From positions 1 through 64,000 of the forward strand of contig PDZV01000011.1 of NCBI GenBank assembly GCA_002753135.1: DNA of 64,000 nucleotides. The letters run 5' to 3'. Of the stretch, positions 830 to 14,296 are shown one piece after another. This DNA comes from Magnetococcales bacterium WMHbinv6. Its GTDB lineage: Bacteria > Pseudomonadota > Magnetococcia > Magnetococcales > Magnetaquicoccaceae. The number at the start of each line of letters is the position of its first letter. The stretch's first letter is position 1. Below the pieces are notes generated by a model. It worked only from the letters and a program-made list of their open reading frames with translations, searched no databases and was not told the DNA's origin. The position numbers and the translations under genes were made by a program.

Positions 830-2064
830 GGCCTGTTCCTTACAAAAAAGGAGCGTGTGGCAAAAATGCGCTCGGCAAAACGGTGGCCCTGGCTGGCCAA
901 CTGCCGTTTCAGGACAAAATCAAACAACAGGGGATTGTAGGTTTGCAACTCATTCAACACCGGAACCACCTCTGGCGCAAGCAAGCCGGCTTTGGCCAAT
1001 CTTCCCGGTAAAATCAAGGGCAGTATGCCGGGCAGGGGATAATCGCTGCCGTTGAGCAGTCGATCATGCCAATCCTGCCGCTGCAGCAGGGTATGCAACA
1101 CCTCCGGTTGCCGATTGCGCAAGGTGATGGCAGAAATATCGCCAAACAGATGCTGCCGAAAGTCGGGATCATCCATCATCCGGGTAAACAGGCTGAAACC
1201 GCTCACCGCCTGCTGGCCGTGATCCAGATCCGCTTCATCGCCCAAGGTGGCGCAATGGGCCATGATCACCCGTACCCCTTGTTGCAACGCCAGACGCAGG
1301 CGCAAGGGATTGCCAAACGCGGTTTCTCCCATCCCTTCGACCGCTTTTTCCTCGCCGGTGTGGCTGAGCAGCGGCAGATCCAGGCTGGCCATGGCCTGAT
1401 AAAAGGGGCGGCAGCGCGCCTCTGCCGGGTCGATACCCATGGCCGGAGGCAACCATTTGACGGCCCGGGCACCCTCTGCTTTGGCCTGCTGCAGGGCATC
1501 AATGGCGTCAGGGCGGTAAGGGTGGATGGAGGCGATCCATTCAAAATGGTCAGGATAACGGGCGGCCAAGGCCTGCGCCGAAGCGTTGGCGACATAAAAA
1601 GCACTTTTTTCCGGCAGGGCTTGGCCGTTCTCTTTATGCGCCTGATCAAAGGCCAACAGCAGCAGTTTGGCACCCGGAGGAAACTGTTCCAACAGGCGGT
1701 TCAGACGGGCGATATAGCTCAGATCAATTTGACCTGGACGTTGATCGACACAGGCGGCGTTGAGATAAAAAAGCCGTTGCACATAATGAACCGGATGCCA
1801 GAGGCTGCCCTGCCTGGCAGGCAGCCGAATGCCGCTGTCCGAGTCGCCCACCCCGGCGATATGGGCGTGACAATCCCAAAAGTCGGCGGGATCGATTCCT
1901 TGCCAGGCGGCTTGCACGATTGGATGCGCGGCCAAATGGGCAGGCAGACCCTCATGGCAGGGGTTCCAAAGCAGCGGGGTGGCCCAGGCAGGCGCGGATG
2001 TGGTCAGCAGGCCCAGGCTGGCCAGGCCGATCTTCTGCAACAGGCTGCGCCGCGTCCGGTTCAT
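826..2064 (-). CDS. Tat-type exported amidohydrolase (TIM-barrel metal-dependent hydrolase)
   Basis: A 412-residue protein of the amidohydrolase-2 type. The N-terminus TRRSLLQKIGLASLG is a twin-arginine-like signal ending near SAPAWA, so a folded periplasmic enzyme is likely. The metal site is visible as HAH (H66, H68), a central SHTGEE, the strand GVRVIMAHCATLG, GDISAI and the late aspartate motif NGSDYPLP. Such enzymes hydrolyse C-N, C-O or C-C bonds; the substrate cannot be read from the sequence. It sits between the aas-like and lplT-like genes with ATGA overlaps on both sides, so it is translated from the same message. Its insertion into this normally adjacent pair suggests work on a lipid-derived or envelope compound, which is inference. 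Confidence 0.8.
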   Translation of the reverse strand: MNRTRRSLLQKIGLASLGLLTTSAPAWATPLLWNPCHEGLPAHLAAHPIVQAAWQGIDPADFWDCHAHIAGVGDSDSGIRLPARQGSLWHPVHYVQRLFYLNAACVDQRPGQIDLSYIARLNRLLEQFPPGAKLLLLAFDQAHKENGQALPEKSAFYVANASAQALAARYPDHFEWIASIHPYRPDAIDALQQAKAEGARAVKWLPPAMGIDPAEARCRPFYQAMASLDLPLLSHTGEEKAVEGMGETAFGNPLRLRLALQQGVRVIMAHCATLGDEADLDHGQQAVSGFSLFTRMMDDPDFRQHLFGDISAITLRNRQPEVLHTLLQRQDWHDRLLNGSDYPLPGILPLILPGRLAKAGLLAPEVVPVLNELQTYNPLLFDFVLKRQLASQGHRFAERIFATRSFFVRNRP

Positions 2065-4214
2065 CGCACCTTCTCGGCCATCTGCTTCAAGGTGACATAA
2101 TCGACTTTGCCGGTACCCAACAGTGGCAGGGCATCAATACGCACGATTTTGCGCGGCACGGCCAACTCCGGGCTGCCCAGTTCACGGGCTTGGCCGAGCA
2201 ACCGTTCGCGGTCCAATTGGGGATCGGTGGTGAAAAGTATCAGCGCCTCGCCCTTGCTGGGGTCGGGCTGACTGCTGGCGGCATGTTGTTGCTCCGGCGA
2301 GGCGGCAACGGCCAATTTTTCCACACTTTCCAGGCTGATCATCTCCCCTGCCACTTTGGCAAAACGTTTGATGCGGCCAATGATGCGGATAAAACCGTCA
2401 TCATCCACCGTGACCAGATCACCGGTTTCATACCAGCCCTCCCCGGCGCTGCAGGAGGGGGGTTGCAGGTGACCGGGTTGATCGGTCTTGAAATAACCGG
2501 AAAACAGATTCGGGCCATAGACCTGCAACATGCCACCACGGCTGATGCCGGGCACCGCTTCGATACGCCAGGAGATGCCGGGCAAAAAGGTGCCGACCGT
2601 ACCGCTGCGATAGGCAAGGGTGGTGTTGCAGGAGAGAACCGGCGCGGTTTCGGTGGCTCCGTATCCTTCCAGAATGCGCAGACCAAATTTTTCAAACCAC
2701 AGGGTGCGCACGTTATCGGTCAACTTTTCTGCCCCGGCGATCACGTAGCGGATGCGGAAAAAATCATACGGATGGGCAAATTTGCCATAGTTGGCCAGAA
2801 AAGTGTTGGTACCGAAGAGAATGGTGCAGGCCCGGTCGTAGGCGGTCTCCGGGACGATCCGGTAGTGCAGGGGGGAGGGATAGAGAAAGAGGGGAATACC
2901 GCTGATCAGCGGCAGCAGGGCTCCGACTGTCAGGCCAAAAGAGTGAAAGAGCGGCAGGGCATTAAGAATTTTATCGTTCGGCGAAAAATCGACGATGGCG
3001 CGAATTTGTGCCAGATTGGCCAGCAAGGCCCGGTGTGAGAGAACCACCCCTTTCGGTGTTCCTTCCGAACCGGAGGTGAACAGCACCACTGCAGGCGATT
3101 CGGGCTCTTCCGGCAAGGCAAAACGGCGCGGCAGCCACAAGGCATAGCCCATCAACCACAGTTTGTCAGCCAGGGTGATGGCAGGTCGTAAATCCTCCAG
3201 ATAGAGCAGGCGGATACCCTGCAGACCAGCCAGTTTTTCGGTCAGATTGGCCTGCTCGACGAAGGCGTGTGATGTGACCACGGTGCGAATGGTGGCGGCC
3301 AGACAGGCCGACTGCATCCCCTCACGACCAGCGGTATAGTTGAGCATGGCCGGTACCCGCCGCCGGGCGGTCAAACCAAGCAGCAGCGCTGCGGTCACCG
3401 CCAGATTGGGCAGCAACAGCCCGATACGATCCCCTTCTTTGACCTCGGGGGCAACCCGCTCCAGCACGCGGGTCAGCAGCAAAGCCATTTTCAGCAGATC
3501 CTGATAGCGGTATTCAATCTGCTTGACATCTTCGACCAAAGGCATAAAACGGCCATGCAAGGCGATGGCGTCGCAAAAGGCAGCAAACAGGGTATGGTGC
3601 GGGGTGGTGGCAAAAATCATCTCCTGCATCATCCGCTGCATGGCCCGCCCGGCTTTGCTGCGGCGTTGTTTGGCCAGCGGCGCATCGGGCATCGGCAGGC
3701 TGGTTGGCGGCAGCAGGGTGATGGTGATTTTGGGCAACAGTCGACGCGGAAACGGCTTTTTCAGGCGGGAAAAAGGGGTCAAGGCCGTGCCATGCAGGCG
3801 CACGGGCAGAATGGTGGCCCCACTTTTGGCGGCAGCGAAGGCAGGACCGTCATAGACCTTCATCAAACTGCCGGTCAGGGTGATGCGCCCTTCGGGAAAA
3901 ATTAAAACCGGTCGTCCCGACTCCAACAAACGAATCACCTTTTTCATCGCCATCGGGCTGTTGCTGTCCACGGCCAACGTTTCCACCTGCGAGAGCAGCA
4001 TCCGGAAAAAGCGGGAGCGCAGCACGCTGGTATGGACCACGATCACCGGATCCACCGGCAAAAAGAGGCTGAGCAGCCAGCCGTCGAGAAACGATTCATG
4101 GTTGGCGATGATCAACAGCCGTTCGGCCTGCAGCGCTTGCTGCTCACCGACGACACGGACCCGAAACAGTAAGCGGGTCAGTTGACGCATCAGAAAGCGA
4201 AGCAGTGCTTTCAT
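2061..4214 (-). CDS. aas: Bifunctional lysophospholipid acyltransferase / acyl-ACP synthetase (Aas-like)
   Basis: A 717-residue two-domain protein with the layout of E. coli Aas. The PlsC-type acyltransferase half has NHESFLD (residues 38-44, the HX4D motif) and FPEGR (106-110). The AMP-binding ligase half has the P-loop LFTSGSEGTPKG (about 378-389), GYGATETAP, YETGDLV and a C-terminal LLGTGKVDY lysine motif. Aas activates a fatty acid onto acyl carrier protein and transfers it to 2-acyl lysophospholipid at the inner membrane, working with LplT. Both ends overlap neighbouring genes as ATGA, showing tight coupling with the Sir2 gene upstream and the amidohydrolase downstream. Length matches the family. 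A more general acyl-AMP ligase role cannot be excluded. Confidence 0.88.
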   Translation of the reverse strand: MKALLRFLMRQLTRLLFRVRVVGEQQALQAERLLIIANHESFLDGWLLSLFLPVDPVIVVHTSVLRSRFFRMLLSQVETLAVDSNSPMAMKKVIRLLESGRPVLIFPEGRITLTGSLMKVYDGPAFAAAKSGATILPVRLHGTALTPFSRLKKPFPRRLLPKITITLLPPTSLPMPDAPLAKQRRSKAGRAMQRMMQEMIFATTPHHTLFAAFCDAIALHGRFMPLVEDVKQIEYRYQDLLKMALLLTRVLERVAPEVKEGDRIGLLLPNLAVTAALLLGLTARRRVPAMLNYTAGREGMQSACLAATIRTVVTSHAFVEQANLTEKLAGLQGIRLLYLEDLRPAITLADKLWLMGYALWLPRRFALPEEPESPAVVLFTSGSEGTPKGVVLSHRALLANLAQIRAIVDFSPNDKILNALPLFHSFGLTVGALLPLISGIPLFLYPSPLHYRIVPETAYDRACTILFGTNTFLANYGKFAHPYDFFRIRYVIAGAEKLTDNVRTLWFEKFGLRILEGYGATETAPVLSCNTTLAYRSGTVGTFLPGISWRIEAVPGISRGGMLQVYGPNLFSGYFKTDQPGHLQPPSCSAGEGWYETGDLVTVDDDGFIRIIGRIKRFAKVAGEMISLESVEKLAVAASPEQQHAASSQPDPSKGEALILFTTDPQLDRERLLGQARELGSPELAVPRKIVRIDALPLLGTGKVDYVTLKQMAEKVR

Positions 4215-4984
4215 CTCTGGAGCGGCTCCTCTGCAAGAGCGTTGACAATCTGCGGTAAAATGAAACCTGCCGGGCCGTGCAGATTGAAATCGGCGACGGG
4301 ATCGAGGCTGGTGCCGTTGGGGTTGATTTGTACCACGGTAGCCCCGTGCTGTTTGGCTTGAAACGGCAATTGAGCCGCCGGCCAGACCAGCGAAGAGGTG
4401 CCGATGGAAAAAAGCAGGTCACACTGATTGGTTGCCTGTTCTGCCTGCTGCCAGATGGTCTCCGGCAGCGATTCCCCAAACCAGACCACGCCGGGACGAA
4501 TCGGACCGCTGCAACGGGCACAACGCGGCGGGGTCAGGCGACGTCCCCCTTCCGGTTCATCGGGAATGCCTTCCGGCAGAGGATAGGGGGTGGCACAGTT
4601 GAAACAACGGGGCTGATGCAGCGAACCATGCAGGCGCAGCAGGTGCTGGTTGCCCGCCCGTTCGTGCAGGTTATCGACGTTTTGGGTGATCAGGGTCAAT
4701 TCCGGGACCAGTGGCAGCAGTCGGGCAATGGCCAGGTGGGCCGGGTTGGGTTCGGCCAGCAATGCTTTGCGGCGACGCCATTCATACCAGCCCCAGACCA
4801 GATCCGGATCAGAGAGAAACCCCTCCGGGCTGGCCAGACGGGCCGGATCAAAACGGCTCCACAAGCCGGTCAAGGCATCGCGAAAGGTGGGAATGGCACT
4901 CTCTGCTGACACACCGGCACCAGTAAACACCACGACCCGTTGGCATTGTTGCAAACGGGAGACAACCAAAGACAAGGCTTCCAT
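4211..4984 (-). CDS. Sir2-family NAD-dependent protein deacylase
   Basis: A 257-residue sirtuin. It shows the NAD-binding start VVFTGAGVSAESAIPTFRDA, the catalytic TQNVDNLHERAG followed by LHGSLH (catalytic histidine), a zinc ribbon CFNC...CARC, GVVWFGESLP and SIGTSSLVWPAAQLP. Family members remove acetyl, succinyl or longer acyl groups from lysines, consuming NAD+. The chosen start is ATG at 4984, four bases after the stop of the giant repeat gene; a GTG at 4996 would add four residues and overlap that gene. The stop overlaps the aas-like start as ATGA. Because CobB-type sirtuins control acyl-CoA synthetases by deacylating their ligase lysine, coupling to an AMP-forming ligase gene is functionally sensible, though inferred. 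Confidence 0.9.
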   Translation of the reverse strand: MEALSLVVSRLQQCQRVVVFTGAGVSAESAIPTFRDALTGLWSRFDPARLASPEGFLSDPDLVWGWYEWRRRKALLAEPNPAHLAIARLLPLVPELTLITQNVDNLHERAGNQHLLRLHGSLHQPRCFNCATPYPLPEGIPDEPEGGRRLTPPRCARCSGPIRPGVVWFGESLPETIWQQAEQATNQCDLLFSIGTSSLVWPAAQLPFQAKQHGATVVQINPNGTSLDPVADFNLHGPAGFILPQIVNALAEEPLQR

Positions 4985-4988
4985 GCCG

Positions 4989-7900
4989 TTACACACCCCA
5001 TAAAGTGGCCATGGCTTCTGCTTTTCCAGACTGATGAAGGGAATCCAGCGCCTCCACCTGGGTCAGGGTTAAACCATGGGCACTCCAGGCGGCCATTCCG
5101 GCTTCAAAATGGCTGGCAGTGCCATTCCAAGTGGTGGCAATCGATTTAACCTGGGCGACCGACAGAGAATCCAGTTGCAAGGCGGTGAGGCTGGCGATTT
5201 GTGTTGTTGTCATGGCGCGAATTTGCGCGGTTGTCAAGCCATCACATTGCCCTGCACGCAAAGAAGCCACTGCCGTGGTGGTCAAGGCGACCAGTTGCAG
5301 CGTGCCAAAGGCACCAATCTGGGCGGAACGCAGCAGGGTTAACTGGCTGTCGGCCATGCCGCTTACCTGAACGGAACTCAATCCGGCCAGTTGGCTATTG
5401 GCCAGAGAGGCCCATTGCAAGGCGGTGAGACCGTCGAGTTGTGTATTGGCCAAGCCGAGCAGTTGCCGAGAAGCAATACCGTTCCATTGCAGCGGGGTAA
5501 AGAGAGCCAGTTGTTCAGAGGAGAGACCATCCCATTGGCTGTTGGCCAAAGCGGACAACTGCAGCGAGGTCCAGCCAGAGAGTTGCGCAGCCGTCAATTG
5601 GGCCAATTGCCGGCTGGAAAGCCCATCCAACTGGGTGTTGGCCAGAGCTTGCCACTGTCGAGAGGTCAAATCCAATACCTGTGGGGCCAGCAGCAGGCTC
5701 AGTTGCCTGGAGGTCAAACCATCCAGTTGGGTGTTGGCCAGCGTAATCCACTGCTCGGCGGGCAAAGCGCTCAACTGGGTGATGGCCAGGGCCGAGAGTT
5801 GTGTGGAGGTCAGCAGATCCATCTGACTGGCCGGCAATCCCGACAAGGTCAGAGAGGTCAAACCGTCCAGCTGCGTATTGGCCAACCCACGCCAGGCAAG
5901 GGAGGTAAAAGCAAAGAGCTGCTCCACTGCCAAGGTTTGCAACTGCAAGGAAGCGATGCCGTCCCATTGCGTTGTCGCCCAGGAGGCCAGTTGTGCCGAG
6001 GTGAGAGCGGACCATTGGCTGGCAGCAAGGCCGGCCAAACGTGTGGAGGAGATTCCGTTCCATTGTACGGGCGTCAAGGTTGCCAACTGATCCGCAAGCA
6101 GGCCATCCCATTGGCTGTTGGCCAGCGAGGCCAAGGCAAGAGATGTCAGGGCAGCGAGTACCGTGTTGCTCATCTCACCCAATTGTCGCGAGGTCAAACC
6201 ATCCAGTTGACTGTTGGCCAGAGCACGCCAATGCAGGGAGGTCAGCCCGGATAGTTGTTCCTGGTGCAGATTTTTCAGCTGCAGGGAGGTCAGACCATCG
6301 AGTTGACTGTTGGCCAAACCCTGCCACTGTGGCGCAGACAATCCGGCCAACTGGCTGTTGGCCAAGGACGAAAGCTGCCAGGAAGTCAGGAGATTCAACC
6401 GTTCATCTGGCAGGATGGCCAGACTTTCTGAGTTCAAACCATCCAATTGGGTATTGGCCAGCCCCCGCCAGGCCAGAGAGGTAAAAGCAGACAACTGTCT
6501 TGCCGCCAGGGATTGCAGCTGCAAAGAGCCGAGACCGTCCCATTGCGTCGTTGCCCAGGAGGCCAGTTGTGCGCTGGTGAGGTCGGAAAGTTGGCTTGCG
6601 GCAAGAGCGGCCAGTCGCAGTGAGCCAACGCCGTCCCACTGGGAGTCAGAGAGGGTGGCCAGTTGTTGCGCAAGCAGGCCGTCCCATTGGCTGTTGGCCA
6701 GAGAGGCCAGAGAGAGGGATTTCAATCCAGGGAGTACCAAACGGCTCAAAGCGCCTAATTGGGTGGCAGTGAGTCCATCCAACTGTGTGTTGGCCAGAGA
6801 ACGCCAGTGCAATGAGGTGAGTCCGGGAAGTTGTTGGCTGTGCAAATTTTTCAGTTGCAATGAGGTCAAGCCGTCGTATTGGGTGTAGGCGAGGGTAGTG
6901 AGTTGCATGGCAGAGAGCGCCTGCAGCTGACTATTGGCCAAGCCGCTCCATTGCCGGGAGGTCAAGCCTCTGAGCTGTTGAGGGGTCAAATTGGCCAGTG
7001 CAGCGGCTGGCAAACCATCCAGTTGACTGTTTGCCAAAGTGGTCAATAGGCTGGAGTTCCATCCTTGCCATTGCGCATCGGAGAGGGCGCGCAGCTGCAG
7101 CGAACCGACAGCGCGCAATTGGGTATTGGCCAGTCCAAACCATTGCCCGGCATCCAAACCGGCCAGTTGACTCGTTGACAGGCTGGCGATGGTTTGTGAG
7201 CTGAGCCGATTAAGCAGCGGTTCCTGCCACTGTGCCAGCTGTTCGGAGGAGAGACCAATGAGTTGCCTGCTGCCAAGAGCGGCCAGTTGTCCGCTCTGCC
7301 ACTCTTGCCACTGGCTGGCCGTCAGTGTCCGCAGTTGTTGTGAGGTGAGCCCTTTGAGCTGGGTATTGGCCAATCCGGCCCATTGTGTGGCGCGGATGCC
7401 AGCAAGTTGCGTATCGGCCAAAGCAGTCAGGTGCAGTGAACCCATGCCATTGAGCGTTTCATTGCTGAATGCGCTCAAATGTGCAGAGGTGATGCCATCC
7501 CATTGGCTGTTGGCCAGACCACTCAATTGCCCGCTGCTCAGGCCAGTCCATTGATAATCACCTGTCGCGGACAGTTGCGCGGCAAGCAAACCGTCCAACT
7601 GACTGTTGCTCAGACCGCTCCAATGCTGGTTACCAAATGTCTGCAATTGACTGGCAGACAAGCTCTGCAACTGCAACGCACGCATACCATCCAATTGACT
7701 GTTGGCCAGGGAAGCCAACTGCGTGGCAGTCAAACTGTTCCATTGAGTCATTGCCAGGGCGTTCAATTGGCTGGACCGCAGACCATTGAGTTGTTTGTCA
7801 CTCAGGGAGTGCCACGCCGAGGAAAGCAGCCCATCCAACTGGGTATTGGCCAGCTGGGTTAATTGGCCGGAGGTCAACCCCAGCAGAGAGTTGCCGGACA

Positions 7901-10900
7901 ACACGCTGAGTTGCCCAGAGGCGAGACCATCCAGTTGGCTGTTGGCCAAGGCGTACCAATGAAGAGAGGTCAGGTATTGCAGCGATTGGATACTCAGACG
8001 GTTGAGTTGTCGGGAGGTCAGGCCGTTATATTGGGTGTTGGCCAGGCTGACAAAGCTGTTGGCCGGTAAAGCCAGCAACTGGCTATCGGCCAGGGCTGTC
8101 AGTTGTAAAGAACTGAAGCCATTGAGCTGGGCAGCTTCCAGGGCTTGCAGAGTGACATCAGTCAGGCCATCCAATTGGCTGTTGGCCAGGCTGAACAGTT
8201 GGCGACTGTTCAGCGGGCAACCTTGGGCAAAGGGTGCAGAACGCAGTTGTACGGAGGAGAGGCCATCCAATTGGGTGTAGTCCAATTTTTCCCACTGTGC
8301 CGAGGTCAAGCCAGCCAATTGTGTGGCGGCAAATTTGTTTAATTGCCCAGAGCTGAGGAGATGCAGGGTTTGCTCGTCAAGGATTGCCATGGTCGAGGAG
8401 CGCAGACCGTCCAGTTGGGTATTGGCCAACCCTTTCCATTGGTTGCTGCCCAAGGATGCCAGCCAGGTTTCATCCAGAGTGTGTACCTGCTCGGAACGCA
8501 GGCCATCCAATTGGCTGTTGGCCAGAGAGGTCACTTGATCATGGCTCATGCTGCTTAACTGGCTGACCGCCAAGGCGGCCAATTGCGCCGAACGTAGCCC
8601 ATTGAGTACGGCAAGAGCAAAAGAGGCCAAAGCCAAAGAGCTGAGACCATCCAGTTGGGTATTGGCCAATGCAACCAATTGCGCACTGTTGAGGGATTCT
8701 CTCAGCTTTTCCTGGCCTTGCCATGGGATGGTATCCGCTGCCAGGGGTAAGGGAAAGAGGGTTGCTATGTGTTGGCTGGTCAGCCCATCCAGTTGGCTGT
8801 TGGCCAGCGATTGCCACTGTGGTGCCGTAACATCAACCAATTGCGTGGCAGCCAACGTGCGCAGCTGCAAGGAGGTCAGACCATTGAGTTGTGTGGCCGA
8901 CAAACCGGCCCAGCGTTCTGCCGGCAAGGCGGTCAGTTGACTGGTAGCCAGTGATGCCAGATTCTGTGAACTCAAACCATCCCATTGGCTGTCGGCCAGA
9001 TGTGCCAGTTGTGCTGCCTGCAAACCATCACATTGACTGGTGCTGAGTTTGAACAGCTGGACGGAACTCCAACCATCCCATTGTGTGGCAGCCAGAGAGT
9101 GCAGCGAGCGGGAGGAGAGGCCGCGCAATTGGGTGACTGCCAGAGTGTTCCACTGGGCAGCGGTGATGCCGTCAAGTTGCGTTGTGGCCAGAGCAGCCAG
9201 CTGTTGGGTGGTGACGCCATTCCACTGTTGGGCATCCAACAAGCGGAGTGCATCGGCGTGAAAACCATCCAGCTGGGTGTTGGCCAAACCAGCCAATTGG
9301 TTGCTGCAGAGAGTGGTCAACAGCTCTTGTCCAACTGTGGTCAAGGCTTGTGAGCGCAGACCGTCCAGTTGGCTGTTGGCCAAAGATTGCAGTTGCAGTT
9401 TGCTCAATCCCTGCAACTGTGTGTCGGCCAGGGCAAATATCTGGTTGGAACGCAGACCGTTGAGCGTGGTCACGCTGAAATTGGCCAAGGTGTCCGAGAG
9501 CAGGCCATCCAGTTGGCTGTTGGCCAGAAAAAGCAACTGTTGCGAGGTGAACAGGCTGGATGATCTATCCAGGACATACGTTTCCAGTTCCAATGGGTTG
9601 TCGGATACAGAAGCGTTCAATAAGGCGGAGAGAGCAAGCAGTTGATCCGCTTGCAAACCATCCAGTTGTGTATTGGCCAGGCTGTGCCATTGCTTGTTTG
9701 CCAACGAGGCCAATTGGGTTGCGGGCATGGCGCGTAACTGGTGCGAAGCAAGGCCATTCCATTGACTATCGACCAATGAGGTCAGTTGTTTGGCATACAG
9801 CCCTTGCCATTGGCTTGCCGCCAGGCTGTTCAGTTGCAGCGATTGTAACCCGTTCAATTGGGTCTCGGATAATGTGTATAACTGATCGGCGGTCATCCCA
9901 TTCAATTGGGTATGGGCCAATTGTGCCAACTGTAGCGAACTCAATCCGTCCCATGTGCTTTGTCCCAGGAGGTTGAGTTGACTGGAGGTGAGGCCATCCC
10001 ATTGTGTATTGGCAAACGATGCCAGTTGGTGTGGCGTGAATGCACAGATCTGTTGTGGGGTCAGCGCGGCCAGTTGTCCACTGCTCAAACCATTGAGCTG
10101 TGCCGTACTCCAGATGGCAAGATGATCGTTGTCGATTGCCTGCAATTGGGATTTATTCAGGGCAGCCAATTGACTGCTGCCCAGTTGCGACCATTGGCTG
10201 CCGGCCAGGGAGGCCAGTTGTGAACCATTCAATCCCTGCAGTTGAGCGGGAGTTAACCAGCTCAGACTTTCCGCATCCAGTGCATCCAGTTGTTCCGCAC
10301 TCCATTTGCCCAATTCACTGCTGCTCAGGTTGATCAGTTTGGCAACCTGGATGGACTTTTGCATCATCTCGTTGAGTTGATCCAGGTTCAGCCCATTGTT
10401 GTCAGAAGTTTGCAGCAGCGTGCGATTATCGGCTCTGATCTGCACGCCGGTAATGGTCTGATTTGAAAAACCATCCAGGAAAGGAAAATCGCTAAGAGAC
10501 TGCTTGCCCGGAGAAATGCTGCCAGCAAAATGATCCAGGGTGAAGGTTACTCTGGTATCTTTGTTCCCGGATGTGTGGTAGGGGTCATGCAGGATAATTT
10601 CAACCTTGTTGGGGGCAAAGGTGCAGTCGTAACGAATCAGGTTAACGGGTTGTTTTGGTGTGCCAACCTGGATGCCGGTGATGGTGATGCTGGTGTTGCT
10701 GCTTTCCACACCCGGTATCACACCGATTGTGGTCATGGACGAAGGGAAGGTGCCGTTGATCGCAAAGGTGAAACTGTCTGTCGCCATTTGCAACTGGCGC
10801 GAGGAGAGTTTGAGAGAAAACATCAGTCTGCCGGCAGTAACCGACTGGCTGCCCGCAGAGTAGGTGCCGTTCAGGTAACAGGAAAACTGCGCGATAGTGC

Positions 10901-11153
10901 CGGATTGCAGGCTGCGTGACTCTTTGTAAGTCAGGTTTGACCCGGCAATGATTACCAGGTAGCGATCGGTCGGTGAAGACAAACTGGCAAATTGAGTGGC
11001 AAAGGTGTTTTCTGTCGATTCTTTGATGACAAATTTGCTTTTATCCAGGGAGGCAGAGCCGAATTGATCCTTCCATTCACTGACCACGCTTTCTGGAATG
11101 CAAAGTTTGCTAAAGTTACCAAGAAGTTGCATGAGATCGACCGTGTTGCTCAT
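4989..11153 (-). CDS. Giant 2054-aa leucine/glutamine-rich repeat protein
   Basis: Residues 1 to about 287 are non-repetitive, rich in Ser, Thr and beta-branched residues, with no signal peptide. From about residue 288 to 2007 the protein is built of 16-residue repeats, consensus QLDGLTSxQLxxLANT, roughly one hundred copies. Each splits into two 8-residue halves of type QLxxLxSx. A few units carry insertions. A 47-residue tail ends the protein. Such short solenoid-like repeats occur in large secreted or surface proteins, but no transport signal is evident here. The start is well supported: AAGGACT lies upstream of ATG 11153 at normal spacing. It is the first gene of the run leading to sir2, aas and lplT. 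Function is unknown; adhesion or scaffolding is a guess. Confidence 0.9.
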   Translation of the reverse strand: MSNTVDLMQLLGNFSKLCIPESVVSEWKDQFGSASLDKSKFVIKESTENTFATQFASLSSPTDRYLVIIAGSNLTYKESRSLQSGTIAQFSCYLNGTYSAGSQSVTAGRLMFSLKLSSRQLQMATDSFTFAINGTFPSSMTTIGVIPGVESSNTSITITGIQVGTPKQPVNLIRYDCTFAPNKVEIILHDPYHTSGNKDTRVTFTLDHFAGSISPGKQSLSDFPFLDGFSNQTITGVQIRADNRTLLQTSDNNGLNLDQLNEMMQKSIQVAKLINLSSSELGKWSAEQLDALDAESLSWLTPAQLQGLNGSQLASLAGSQWSQLGSSQLAALNKSQLQAIDNDHLAIWSTAQLNGLSSGQLAALTPQQICAFTPHQLASFANTQWDGLTSSQLNLLGQSTWDGLSSLQLAQLAHTQLNGMTADQLYTLSETQLNGLQSLQLNSLAASQWQGLYAKQLTSLVDSQWNGLASHQLRAMPATQLASLANKQWHSLANTQLDGLQADQLLALSALLNASVSDNPLELETYVLDRSSSLFTSQQLLFLANSQLDGLLSDTLANFSVTTLNGLRSNQIFALADTQLQGLSKLQLQSLANSQLDGLRSQALTTVGQELLTTLCSNQLAGLANTQLDGFHADALRLLDAQQWNGVTTQQLAALATTQLDGITAAQWNTLAVTQLRGLSSRSLHSLAATQWDGWSSVQLFKLSTSQCDGLQAAQLAHLADSQWDGLSSQNLASLATSQLTALPAERWAGLSATQLNGLTSLQLRTLAATQLVDVTAPQWQSLANSQLDGLTSQHIATLFPLPLAADTIPWQGQEKLRESLNSAQLVALANTQLDGLSSLALASFALAVLNGLRSAQLAALAVSQLSSMSHDQVTSLANSQLDGLRSEQVHTLDETWLASLGSNQWKGLANTQLDGLRSSTMAILDEQTLHLLSSGQLNKFAATQLAGLTSAQWEKLDYTQLDGLSSVQLRSAPFAQGCPLNSRQLFSLANSQLDGLTDVTLQALEAAQLNGFSSLQLTALADSQLLALPANSFVSLANTQYNGLTSRQLNRLSIQSLQYLTSLHWYALANSQLDGLASGQLSVLSGNSLLGLTSGQLTQLANTQLDGLLSSAWHSLSDKQLNGLRSSQLNALAMTQWNSLTATQLASLANSQLDGMRALQLQSLSASQLQTFGNQHWSGLSNSQLDGLLAAQLSATGDYQWTGLSSGQLSGLANSQWDGITSAHLSAFSNETLNGMGSLHLTALADTQLAGIRATQWAGLANTQLKGLTSQQLRTLTASQWQEWQSGQLAALGSRQLIGLSSEQLAQWQEPLLNRLSSQTIASLSTSQLAGLDAGQWFGLANTQLRAVGSLQLRALSDAQWQGWNSSLLTTLANSQLDGLPAAALANLTPQQLRGLTSRQWSGLANSQLQALSAMQLTTLAYTQYDGLTSLQLKNLHSQQLPGLTSLHWRSLANTQLDGLTATQLGALSRLVLPGLKSLSLASLANSQWDGLLAQQLATLSDSQWDGVGSLRLAALAASQLSDLTSAQLASWATTQWDGLGSLQLQSLAARQLSAFTSLAWRGLANTQLDGLNSESLAILPDERLNLLTSWQLSSLANSQLAGLSAPQWQGLANSQLDGLTSLQLKNLHQEQLSGLTSLHWRALANSQLDGLTSRQLGEMSNTVLAALTSLALASLANSQWDGLLADQLATLTPVQWNGISSTRLAGLAASQWSALTSAQLASWATTQWDGIASLQLQTLAVEQLFAFTSLAWRGLANTQLDGLTSLTLSGLPASQMDLLTSTQLSALAITQLSALPAEQWITLANTQLDGLTSRQLSLLLAPQVLDLTSRQWQALANTQLDGLSSRQLAQLTAAQLSGWTSLQLSALANSQWDGLSSEQLALFTPLQWNGIASRQLLGLANTQLDGLTALQWASLANSQLAGLSSVQVSGMADSQLTLLRSAQIGAFGTLQLVALTTTAVASLRAGQCDGLTTAQIRAMTTTQIASLTALQLDSLSVAQVKSIATTWNGTASHFEAGMAAWSAHGLTLTQVEALDSLHQSGKAEAMATLWGV
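5133..10292 (-). repeat. Roughly one hundred tandem 48-bp coding repeats
   Basis: The DNA encodes 16-residue units back to back. On the plus strand the core recurs as versions of CCATCCAGTTGGGTGTTGGCC and CCATCCCATTGGCTGTTGG-type words at 48-bp spacing. Copies differ at many synonymous and replacement positions, so the array is old and not freshly homogenised. Conserved positions are Q1, L2, G4, L5, Q9, L10, L13, A14, and T/S16; W often replaces L2. Insertions interrupt the period near residues 490-515 and in two or three later places. Confidence 0.9.
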
Positions 11154-11797: not shown

Positions 11798-14296
11798 ATG
11801 GCTCTAATGCACAAATCACGGACGGGATGGAGGCTGTTGTCGCTCTTTGCCCTTTTGTCGGCCATGGCGATGGCTCAGGCTGATAACAGCAGCGAGGGGT
11901 GCGCGGCAGGCCGTTCGGGTGGCAATTGCCGCAACAATGAAGGCAACAAAGCGGCTCCAGAAGCGGCACGACCGTCTCAGCCAACGCAGCATGCCCCAAC
12001 ATCCGCTCCGCAGACTGCACCCGCTGAAGCCCTCCGACCAGCAGGCCGGCCAGAGGTGCAGCGTGTGGCACCCGCTGAAGTTGTCCGACCAGCAGGCCGG
12101 CCAGAGGTGCAGCGTGTGGCACCCGCTGAAGCCGTCCAACCAGCAGGCCGGCCAGAGGTGCAGCGTGTGGCACCCGCTGAAGCCGTCCGACCAGCAGGCC
12201 GGCCAGAGGTGCAGCGTGTGGTGCCAGTTGAAGCGGTCCAACCAGCTCTTACGGTTCCAAGTGCAGAGAGGCACCGCCCGACGGTAACAGAACCAATCCA
12301 CCCCTCCGCGACGCCGCGCACTATGCAACCGCACTCTTCTCGGGCGGAAGAGCCCCTGCGTACCCCTGCGACGCCGCGCACTGTGCAACCCCAGCCTGCG
12401 CGGGCAGAAGAGGAACCCCTGCGTACCCCTGCGGCGCCGCGCACTGTGCAACCACAGCCTCCACAGCCAGAAGGAGCAGCCCATACCTCTCCGAAGCAGC
12501 GCACTATGCAACCGCAGCCTGCACGGGCAGAAGAGGCTGTGCGCACCCTCTCTCCTGCGCCCGTTGGTGAGAAAAAACAGACGCATGCGCCAGAGGTTTT
12601 TCCGCCGGGTCACTCCTATTCTGGATCGGAGATCTCGTTGCCGCATCAAAGCGATCTGGAAGAACCGGCACAGAAAGTGCGGCAGCGAGAGTTGCGCCAG
12701 CCAAAGGCGGCAGAGTCGCATCCGCTGCCCGCTCCTGCCCAGCAGCTCGAACCCAAAAGAGCGCAGCCGGTTGAGGCGTTGCGACCGTCCACTGCTGCCC
12801 CTGGTAAAGAACCGTCACAGGCACGACCAGTCGAACAGATGAAATCGCTGCAACCGACAGCTCCGCTGCCGGAGCGCATCAGACGAGAGCCGGGATTTTT
12901 CCATGGCGAAGGAGAACACACAAGCCCGAAACGGGCGAAGCCGATCGTGCGCCAGGCCATTGCGCTCAATCCGGCAACCACGGTGTTTGTGCAGCAGGGC
13001 AAAGAAGATGTGACGGTGCAGCACAAAACAGCGGATGGCAAAGAGTGGATCATGCAGGCGCGGCCATCTGGCAAACATCGTCCTCATTTGGAAATTTATC
13101 AACAAAGCCGCGATCCTGACAGCGGTCAGCAAACTCGTTGGTATCCGGATGGAAGGCGGATAGTCTATGGCAAGGATTTTGTGACCCATACGCTGCCGCA
13201 GCGGATAAGCTTGACCCAGCACAATAATGGCTTGCGCAGTGCCTTTTTACCCAGTGGCAACGTTGAGCGGCACGCACGCACGGCAGAGCATACGCAACGC
13301 TATTTTCAGGAAGAGTTTGCCACCCATCACCAGCAAGGTCATGAACAGCGGATTATTCGCCGCACGGTCTATGCCCGCTTGCACGGGCCAAAAGTGGTGG
13401 TGTTGCCACAGCCGCAAATCTGGATTTATCGTCCTCTGCTGGTGCATCGCTCGGAGGTGTATACCTACGATCCGATCGTGTGGCAGCCATCGATCTATGC
13501 GCTGCTGCTGCAGCCATTGGCCACACCGATCGTGGTGACGCGGGAGTGTCTGTTGTGTCCGCCGCCGGTGATTGTCACCAGCACACCGATCACCACCTAT
13601 CGCCAGCCGATTGATTGGTTGACCGATTGGCAGTTGGCCGGTGCCCTGTATGACGGCATGATCTGGTATGCGCCGCCAGCACAGGAGAGTCGGTATGATT
13701 GGGCAGCATCAGGGGGGAGCGAATCCTTGACGCACATGCAGCGACAACTTGCCGAGGCGATGGCGGAAAATGAGACGTTGCGCAGCGAGTTGGCGGACAA
13801 AGAGCAGCAATTGGCTGCCATTGTCGACTACAATCAATCGGTTGTGGATGATAGAGCCTCCGCGGGTGGCACAAGCGGGGCCTCTCGTCCGGTGACCATT
13901 CCCGATCGGGTACGCAAACAGATGCGTCGGCAAGTGCAGGAGGAGATAGAGCGCCATCAACAACAACAACCAGGCTCCTTGGCTACTCTGTTGGCTTCCG
14001 GGGAGGCGATGCAGACCATTTTTCAGGTTGCCGAACGCCTGGATGTGACGGATAGCCAGAGTGGTGGCACCTGTGTGTTGACAACCGGTGACCTGTTGCA
14101 GTTCAACCGTCTGCCAGGCAGTGACGAGAGTGTGGCCGCCATGAAAATAATCACCGGTAAATCAACTAGTTGCCCTGTTGGCAGTGTGGTGCATGTGGGA
14201 CTGCGCGAACTGCAGGAGATGATGAACGCTTTCAGCCAACGCCTGGAAAATAACGTTGATCGCCTTGCCGAAGAGCTGCTTCCACCACCCCGTTAA
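11798..14296 (+). CDS. Secreted proline-rich tandem-repeat protein, function unknown
   Basis: An 832-residue protein with a signal peptide (residues 1-28, cleavage after AMAQA). Residues 74-145 hold four and a fraction copies of a 17-residue repeat (APAEAVRPAGRPEVQRV type). Residues 171-250 hold four 19-21-residue repeats (ATPRTVQPQPARAEE type). A long proline/glutamine-rich linker follows. A folded middle part (about 385-630) contains many Tyr, Trp and His residues, including WYPDGRRIVYG and a CLLCPPP cysteine pair. Then comes a coiled coil near 640-680 (LTHMQRQLAEAMAENETLR) and a C-terminal domain (about 690-832) with two cysteines. I do not recognise a family. The layout suggests an envelope-spanning or surface protein. 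It follows hemerythrin by 18 bases, so the two may be cotranscribed. Confidence 0.8.
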   Translation: MALMHKSRTGWRLLSLFALLSAMAMAQADNSSEGCAAGRSGGNCRNNEGNKAAPEAARPSQPTQHAPTSAPQTAPAEALRPAGRPEVQRVAPAEVVRPAGRPEVQRVAPAEAVQPAGRPEVQRVAPAEAVRPAGRPEVQRVVPVEAVQPALTVPSAERHRPTVTEPIHPSATPRTMQPHSSRAEEPLRTPATPRTVQPQPARAEEEPLRTPAAPRTVQPQPPQPEGAAHTSPKQRTMQPQPARAEEAVRTLSPAPVGEKKQTHAPEVFPPGHSYSGSEISLPHQSDLEEPAQKVRQRELRQPKAAESHPLPAPAQQLEPKRAQPVEALRPSTAAPGKEPSQARPVEQMKSLQPTAPLPERIRREPGFFHGEGEHTSPKRAKPIVRQAIALNPATTVFVQQGKEDVTVQHKTADGKEWIMQARPSGKHRPHLEIYQQSRDPDSGQQTRWYPDGRRIVYGKDFVTHTLPQRISLTQHNNGLRSAFLPSGNVERHARTAEHTQRYFQEEFATHHQQGHEQRIIRRTVYARLHGPKVVVLPQPQIWIYRPLLVHRSEVYTYDPIVWQPSIYALLLQPLATPIVVTRECLLCPPPVIVTSTPITTYRQPIDWLTDWQLAGALYDGMIWYAPPAQESRYDWAASGGSESLTHMQRQLAEAMAENETLRSELADKEQQLAAIVDYNQSVVDDRASAGGTSGASRPVTIPDRVRKQMRRQVQEEIERHQQQQPGSLATLLASGEAMQTIFQVAERLDVTDSQSGGTCVLTTGDLLQFNRLPGSDESVAAMKIITGKSTSCPVGSVVHVGLRELQEMMNAFSQRLENNVDRLAEELLPPPR
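12017..12220 (+). repeat. Four 51-bp tandem repeats (17-aa units)
   Basis: Four adjacent units encode APAEALRPAGRPEVQRV and near copies (AEVV, AEAVQ, AEAVR variants). They are almost identical in DNA sequence, for example the shared word CAGCAGGCCGGCCAGAGGTG. A degenerate fifth unit continues to about 12244. The high identity suggests recent slippage and copy-number variability. Confidence 0.92.
12308..12550 (+). repeat. Four 57-63-bp tandem repeats (19-21-aa units)
   Basis: Units begin at 12308, 12368, 12431 and 12494 and encode ATPRTMQPHSSRAEE, ATPRTVQPQPARAEE, AAPRTVQPQPPQPEG and KQRTMQPQPARAEE, each with a short tail. They are more diverged than the 51-bp array just upstream. This second repeat family lies in the proline-rich stalk of the same gene. 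Confidence 0.85.

Follow-up and report, generated by a model that had tools for sequence, protein, structure and literature searches.

Giant ALTTAQ-repeat proteins in a relative of magnetotactic cocci and a candidate route of O-glycosylation and type I export

Giant adhesins secreted by type I systems, such as SiiE and the RTX/LapA-like proteins, are repetitive, very large and devoid of a Sec signal. The same combination is found in a protein encoded in a 64,000-nucleotide stretch from Magnetococcales bacterium WMHbinv6 (GenBank assembly GCA_002753135.1, contig PDZV01000011.1, positions 1 to 64,000), referred to here as the window. Its minus strand carries, at 4989..11153, a gene for a protein of 2054 amino acids (218.6 kDa, pI 5.0) which matches the ALTTAQ repeat of Pfam (PF20080; 47.2 bits over 13 stretches, against a curated cut-off of 26.4) and some of whose relatives are encoded beside an exporter. 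In contrast to the known adhesins, this window giant consists of helical octads instead of bacterial Ig domains, and it is without the RTX motif.

In the HMW1/HMW1C system, a cytoplasmic GT41 enzyme is encoded beside the giant exported protein. As in this system and in OGT-like GT41 systems, a GT41 gene lies beside the giant in ALTTAQ relatives. However, the ALTTAQ-linked enzymes carry tetratricopeptide repeats (TPRs) as in OGT and SPINDLY, export would be of type I and not two-partner, and only 7 N-x-S/T sequons occur in the 1720 residues of the window giant's repeats. A third comparison is offered by the magnetotactic coccus MO-1, whose flagella are enclosed in a sheath of a >350-kDa glycoprotein (PMC7175107). 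Here a giant glycoprotein is found outside the cell, showing that such cocci build from giant glycoproteins. Among the 48 genomes of the class, however, PF20080 occurs in a single family, f1, where 16 of 18 genomes have it as against 0 of 30 elsewhere, and the family of MO-1 should lie outside f1, so the comparison serves as an analogy only.

Judged from its relatives, the window giant is more likely than not a signal-peptide-less, probably O-glycosylated and type I-exported extracellular solenoid which may act as an adhesin, sheath or matrix protein. A wider proposal is put forward a little more tentatively: together with TPR-GT41 enzymes and type I exporters, the ALTTAQ giants would form a widespread, undescribed system for making very large O-glycosylated extracellular alpha-solenoid threads. 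A limited literature search covering ALTTAQ, HeliScrew, Magnetococcales adhesins and giant repeats returned nothing on ALTTAQ-repeat proteins and no paper using the word ALTTAQ; in the same search no function was found recorded for PF20080, and no paper links ALTTAQ giants to GT41 and export. The source organism belongs to the Magnetaquicoccaceae, a family name of the order Magnetococcales (PMC6783814).

The ALTTAQ gene and its solenoid

The gene is a single ATG-initiated frame of 2054 codons running from 11153 down to 4989. It is taken to be real because a relative in the same genus, Ca. Magnetaquicoccus inordinatus UR-1 (G020), has a full orthologue in which its start codon, head and tail are all preserved; the start MSN.VDL is shared, the heads are 34% identical and the UR-1 tail ends ..AMSILWGI where the window giant has ..AMATLWGV. 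A head (residues 1-287, 10293..11153) is followed by the repeat region (residues 288-2007, 5133..10292) and a C-terminal tail (residues 2008-2054, 4992..5132, ending LWGV), all on the minus strand. An earlier sequence-only reading had described the 2054-residue protein with its 287-residue head, 47-residue tail and about one hundred 16-residue repeats in two 8-residue halves; all of this is confirmed, and the strand, which it had not given, is added.

Identity at lag 16 reaches 0.33 in the repeat body, whereas 500 shuffles gave 0.113 ± 0.007 and at most 0.134. The underlying period is 8, with identities of 0.255 at lag 8, 0.33 at lag 16 and 0.386 at lag 32. Residues 288-2039 form a chain of 217 octads (about 108 16-mers) with four register breaks, the chain as scored extending to residue 2039 past a break at 2001. 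The commonest residues of the octad follow the pattern Q-L-x-x-L-x-x-x, and Ser, Thr, Ala or Asn are frequent at the last three positions; Ser and Thr together account for 21% of the residues in the repeat body. At the DNA level, tandem repetition has nearly disappeared, with one 1.9-copy array remaining; the octad repeats are therefore old and maintained at the protein level. A match to PF15335 (CAAP1) passes its cut-off over the whole protein although no single stretch does, and other scanned giants match it too; it was set aside as spurious, arising from the repeat pattern.

The octads are predicted to form a long, thin alpha-solenoid with one short helix each, and this prediction is well supported by a confident AlphaFold model and by a solved protein with the same repeat. 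The last 290 residues were modelled from an alignment of 37 ALTTAQ segments (pLDDT 89.5, pTM 0.80), giving one helix per octad, mostly of 4-6 residues, with the helices stacking into an alpha-solenoid; lower confidence attaches to the last ~50 residues, which are also modelled as helical. The solved protein, "HeliScrew4" (PDB 9zem), matches by profile with an E value of 1.3e-29 over 109 residues. Its octad pattern (LTPEQIAA) is that of the window giant and its structure is experimental, although it has only 120 amino acids; no paper on it was found, and from its name and regularity it looks like a designed protein. The long solenoid anticipated from the Leu/Gln pattern is thus borne out in the form of an alpha-solenoid of very short helices. 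Among known folds, the best Foldseek match is mesothelin (weak, E 1.4e-3; 9zem is not among the matches listed), and VIA-align ranks importin-alpha and armadillo proteins highest, also weakly (Z up to 7.8 at 7-8 A rmsd). Mesothelin and armadillo-type solenoids are superhelical stacks of short helices like the model, but matches this weak may reflect only a common arrangement.

Glycosyltransferase and exporter genes beside ALTTAQ giants

Outside the source genome, 79 distinct ALTTAQ loci were gathered, UR-1 included, from Rhizobiales, Caulobacterales, Rhodospirillales, Burkholderiales, Pseudomonas, Solidesulfovibrio, Verrucomicrobiota and others; giant size and the absence of a Sec-like start are common among these relatives. 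Their neighbouring genes were clustered, followed by a directed search for GT41 in flanks totalling 796 kb. One neighbour family dominates, combining TPRs with Glyco_transf_41 (the O-GlcNAc-transferase/SPINDLY family). Its 33 genes lie in 32 loci, and 29 of the 33 are within 600 bp of the giant, most of them directly following it in the same orientation; the enzyme gene adjoins an ALTTAQ giant in about 28 of the 79 loci, one of the close genes (L051) being a weak match. If the genes were spread evenly over the flanks, about 4 of 33 would be expected within 600 bp (binomial ~4e-23, a value which overstates the case as the loci are not independent and some are close relatives, including four Phenylobacterium). 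The hosts of these pairs come from many genera, which belong to several classes and to two phyla (Pseudomonadota and Verrucomicrobiota).

Similar arrangements are found closer to the window gene. On contig C29 of the source genome, the dTDP-rhamnose genes rmlA, rmlD and rmlB are followed by a gene for a TPR protein of 2462 residues that contains three GT41 domains; the largest giant of this genome is divergent to these genes, and UR-1 has rml, GT41 and its largest giant in the same order. In genome G022, giant and GT41 lie ~1.15 kb apart, and in four genomes of the sister genus the genes for giant, HlyD, ABC exporter and GT41 are consecutive. Across the family, 9 of the 16 genomes with ALTTAQ repeats carry GT41 on the same contig as a giant, roughly 1-15 kb apart where checked. 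By analogy with these loci, the window giant is probably O-glycosylated in its loops. Further large TPR proteins with several GT41 domains each are encoded on C17 of the source genome (L175:7379-15796, 2806 codons) and on C92 of G022 (L180:1253-12595, 3781 codons).

The evidence for export also comes by way of relatives, because the window gene adjoins a SIR2 gene and not an exporter. In all four sister-genus genomes examined, genes for HlyD and a HlyB-like ABC exporter lie directly beside the giant and are followed by TPR-GT41. The HlyD proteins pass the TIGR01843 cut-off; the ABC exporters, which have a C39-like domain, match TIGR01846 best, at 581-596 bits and thus below its cut-off of 725. 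Their closest homologues in the source genome are an ABC protein on C29 (1052 bits, compared with 300 for the next) and a HlyD protein on C2 (525 bits, compared with 98); several further type I systems are present in this genome. Type I genes had been suggested as something to look for near the giant, and no match over the TIGR01843 or TIGR03375 cut-off was found within the 64-kb window, the closest homologues of the sister-genus exporter lying elsewhere in the genome. On a Pseudoroseomonas plasmid, ALTTAQ pieces likewise have an ABC and HlyD pair as neighbours.

Type I secretion uses an uncleaved C-terminal signal. The tail of the window giant is conserved among paralogues of the source genome, including one on C23, and in UR-1, and residues 2008-2054 are a candidate for such a signal. 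No Sec signal was seen at the N-terminus by sequence and hydropathy (best 12-residue Kyte-Doolittle mean 0.92), and Sec export was rejected. The initial impression that no export signal is visible thus holds for Sec, while the relatives point to type I secretion with a C-terminal signal, by which the window giant would be exported.

Proposed pathway and competing explanations

The proposed pathway would begin in the cytoplasm, where a TPR-GT41 enzyme of the OGT type would O-glycosylate the Ser/Thr-rich loops between the helices before export; the gene order suggests that the sugar is perhaps derived from dTDP-rhamnose. A type I system of HlyB-type ABC protein and HlyD would then export the giant in one step via a signal in the conserved tail. 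Outside the cell, the solenoid would form a glycosylated thread serving as adhesin, sheath or matrix, and the head may act as a separate functional or anchoring domain, which is the weakest step. The sequence-only reading had left function and location as unknown; both are narrowed by the Pfam-named repeat and by the GT41 and type I genes beside relatives.

If the proposal is correct, threads of up to ~6400 amino acids would be made in the source genome, provided that a TAG-interrupted frame on C29 is one gene. They would represent a helical counterpart of the Ig-like and RTX giant adhesins; giant secreted proteins would gain an alpha-solenoid class, and magnetotactic cocci a candidate surface material that is prone to breakage in short-read assemblies. 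Furthermore, the recurring neighbourhood makes the function of PF20080 testable, as it supplies a named candidate for each of glycosyltransferase, exporter and cargo.

Several observations weigh against this proposal, in addition to the non-independence of the loci. The window gene has SIR2 and an Aas-like gene as neighbours, with no GT41 or exporter gene adjoining. GT41 is present in 47 of 48 class genomes regardless of PF20080, which means that GT41 enzymes have other targets too. Pairs of ABC and HlyD genes lie near only about 5 of the 79 outside loci, and the repeats of the window giant contain no RTX nonapeptide (GGxGxDxUx) and give no PF00353 match.

The absence of GT41 beside the window gene and its presence throughout the class favour a type I-exported giant adhesin or matrix protein which is not glycosylated, with GT41 acting on different giants or on further substrates, for example flagellin. 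So does the absence of GT41 from the examined flank in 47 of the 79 outside loci. This explanation is nevertheless considered rather unlikely: the adjacency of GT41 recurs over many genera and within the same family, and the repeat bodies are similar and Ser/Thr-rich.

It is more doubtful still that the giant is an intracellular scaffold, a cytoplasmic alpha-solenoid which organizes partners such as the SIR2 deacylase and is never exported. Alpha-solenoids are often intracellular binding platforms, no Sec signal is present, and SIR2 is co-located with the giant in both genomes that have the full-length gene. However, type I exporters lie beside the sister-genus giants and the short tails are conserved. 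In addition, ALTTAQ repeats occur fused to protease and RTX modules, and M10 or S8 proteases with RTX modules are typical type I secretion cargo.

An origin as a phage or prophage structural protein, such as a tail fibre, is very improbable. A 360-aa ALTTAQ protein on C70 (L031:5757-6836) matches phrog_5906 and phrog_15773, and the tail of the window giant matches the latter weakly (E 0.008), but a search of 50,697 phage records at a threshold of E 1e-5 gave no match, the tail is without a match in viral contigs, and the surrounding genes are metabolic genes of the chromosome that show synteny with UR-1. The C70 protein itself has short ALTTAQ stretches and may represent a prophage fibre with an acquired repeat. 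Finally, a leucine-rich-repeat (LRR) protein is hardly credible, as the matches to LRR chains in the PDB and, in paralogues, to an LRR Pfam model are explained by leucine spacing, whereas the period is 8/16 and not the usual 20-29, the repeat model has helices only and HeliScrew4 scores above every LRR.

The head domain, the locus and the paralogues

PF20080 proteins share the repeat, whereas the head is special to the window gene, the orthologue in UR-1 and a small number of distant relatives. Homologues of the head are found in UR-1, in G023 (two copies, interspersed between ALTTAQ repeats) and in one protein of G018, which lacks ALTTAQ repeats and whose C-terminal part is RTX-like by eye, with no accepted Pfam match. 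A search of other genomes for repeat and head had been suggested, and it places the repeat well beyond the class and the head in these three genomes; a genome scan with the head alone gave no match. A known family with a defined role matching the head, which the sequence-only reading had set as its refuting result, was looked for by sequence comparison only, without a fold search, and no accepted family was found in Pfam, NCBIfam, PHROGs or PDB sequences. A match to the hydrogenase-maturation model NF007777 was discarded (15 bits, cut-off 190). The AlphaFold model of residues 1-430, built from an alignment of two sequences, is poor in the head (pLDDT 59 overall); it places beta strands between residues 41 and 250 with low confidence and a helix at 257-274, and the head is probably beta-rich.

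Downstream of the giant, a SIR2-family deacylase gene (4211..4984, minus; PF02146, 4.3e-48) is followed by an Aas-like gene combining an acyltransferase with an AMP-binding enzyme (2061..4214, minus; PF01553, PF00501), a neighbour outside the proposed pathway. UR-1 has the same order of SIR2, Aas-like acyltransferase/AMP ligase and amidohydrolase, and its SIR2 protein is 80% identical. With the SIR2 start (4984) placed from the alignment with UR-1, this gene begins ~4-5 bp past the stop of the giant in both genomes, and the two genes probably share one operon. Within the genus, the close SIR2 orthologue is found only in the source genome and UR-1. A second SIR2 gene, 27-31% identical to the first, adjoins an exporter-type ABC gene in 7 of 7 genus genomes (L190:3734-6953, corresponding to C29:93734-96953, and L184-L189 in the other genomes), which may be a single ancestral arrangement. 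SIR2 thus accompanies ALTTAQ or exporter genes twice. The genome paper of UR-1 is silent on repeats, on secretion and on giant proteins. Near the start of the giant, the plus strand of the window encodes an 832-aa protein (11798-14296) with several Pro-rich units like PAGRPEVQRVAPAEA and an apparent signal peptide ahead of them.

The source genome (3.84 Mb in 80 contigs) has other large ALTTAQ frames on C23, C28, C29, C37, C40, C62, C71 and C76. Its giants number at least seven and at most nine, a count which rests on searches and fetched stretches; the genes on C23, C37, C40 and C71 are cut by contig ends, and halves of a single gene may be among them. The largest frame, on C29 (L024:3068-6259 and L023, ~26.9-46.3 kb, minus), has ~6440 codons and is broken by an in-frame TAG after ~1064 codons, reflecting a pseudogene, a real split or an assembly error. 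Two proteins combine ALTTAQ repeats with protease modules: the C71 protein (L029:3-3851) has a serralysin-type M10 protease, M10_C and an RTX repeat, and a Paucibacter protein (L050:59-1873) has an S8 protease, a P-domain and RTX repeats. On a plasmid of Rhodovastum atsumiense, an ALTTAQ gene for 2913 amino acids (L161:5428-14169), annotated as hypothetical, lies between flagellar and glycosyltransferase genes.

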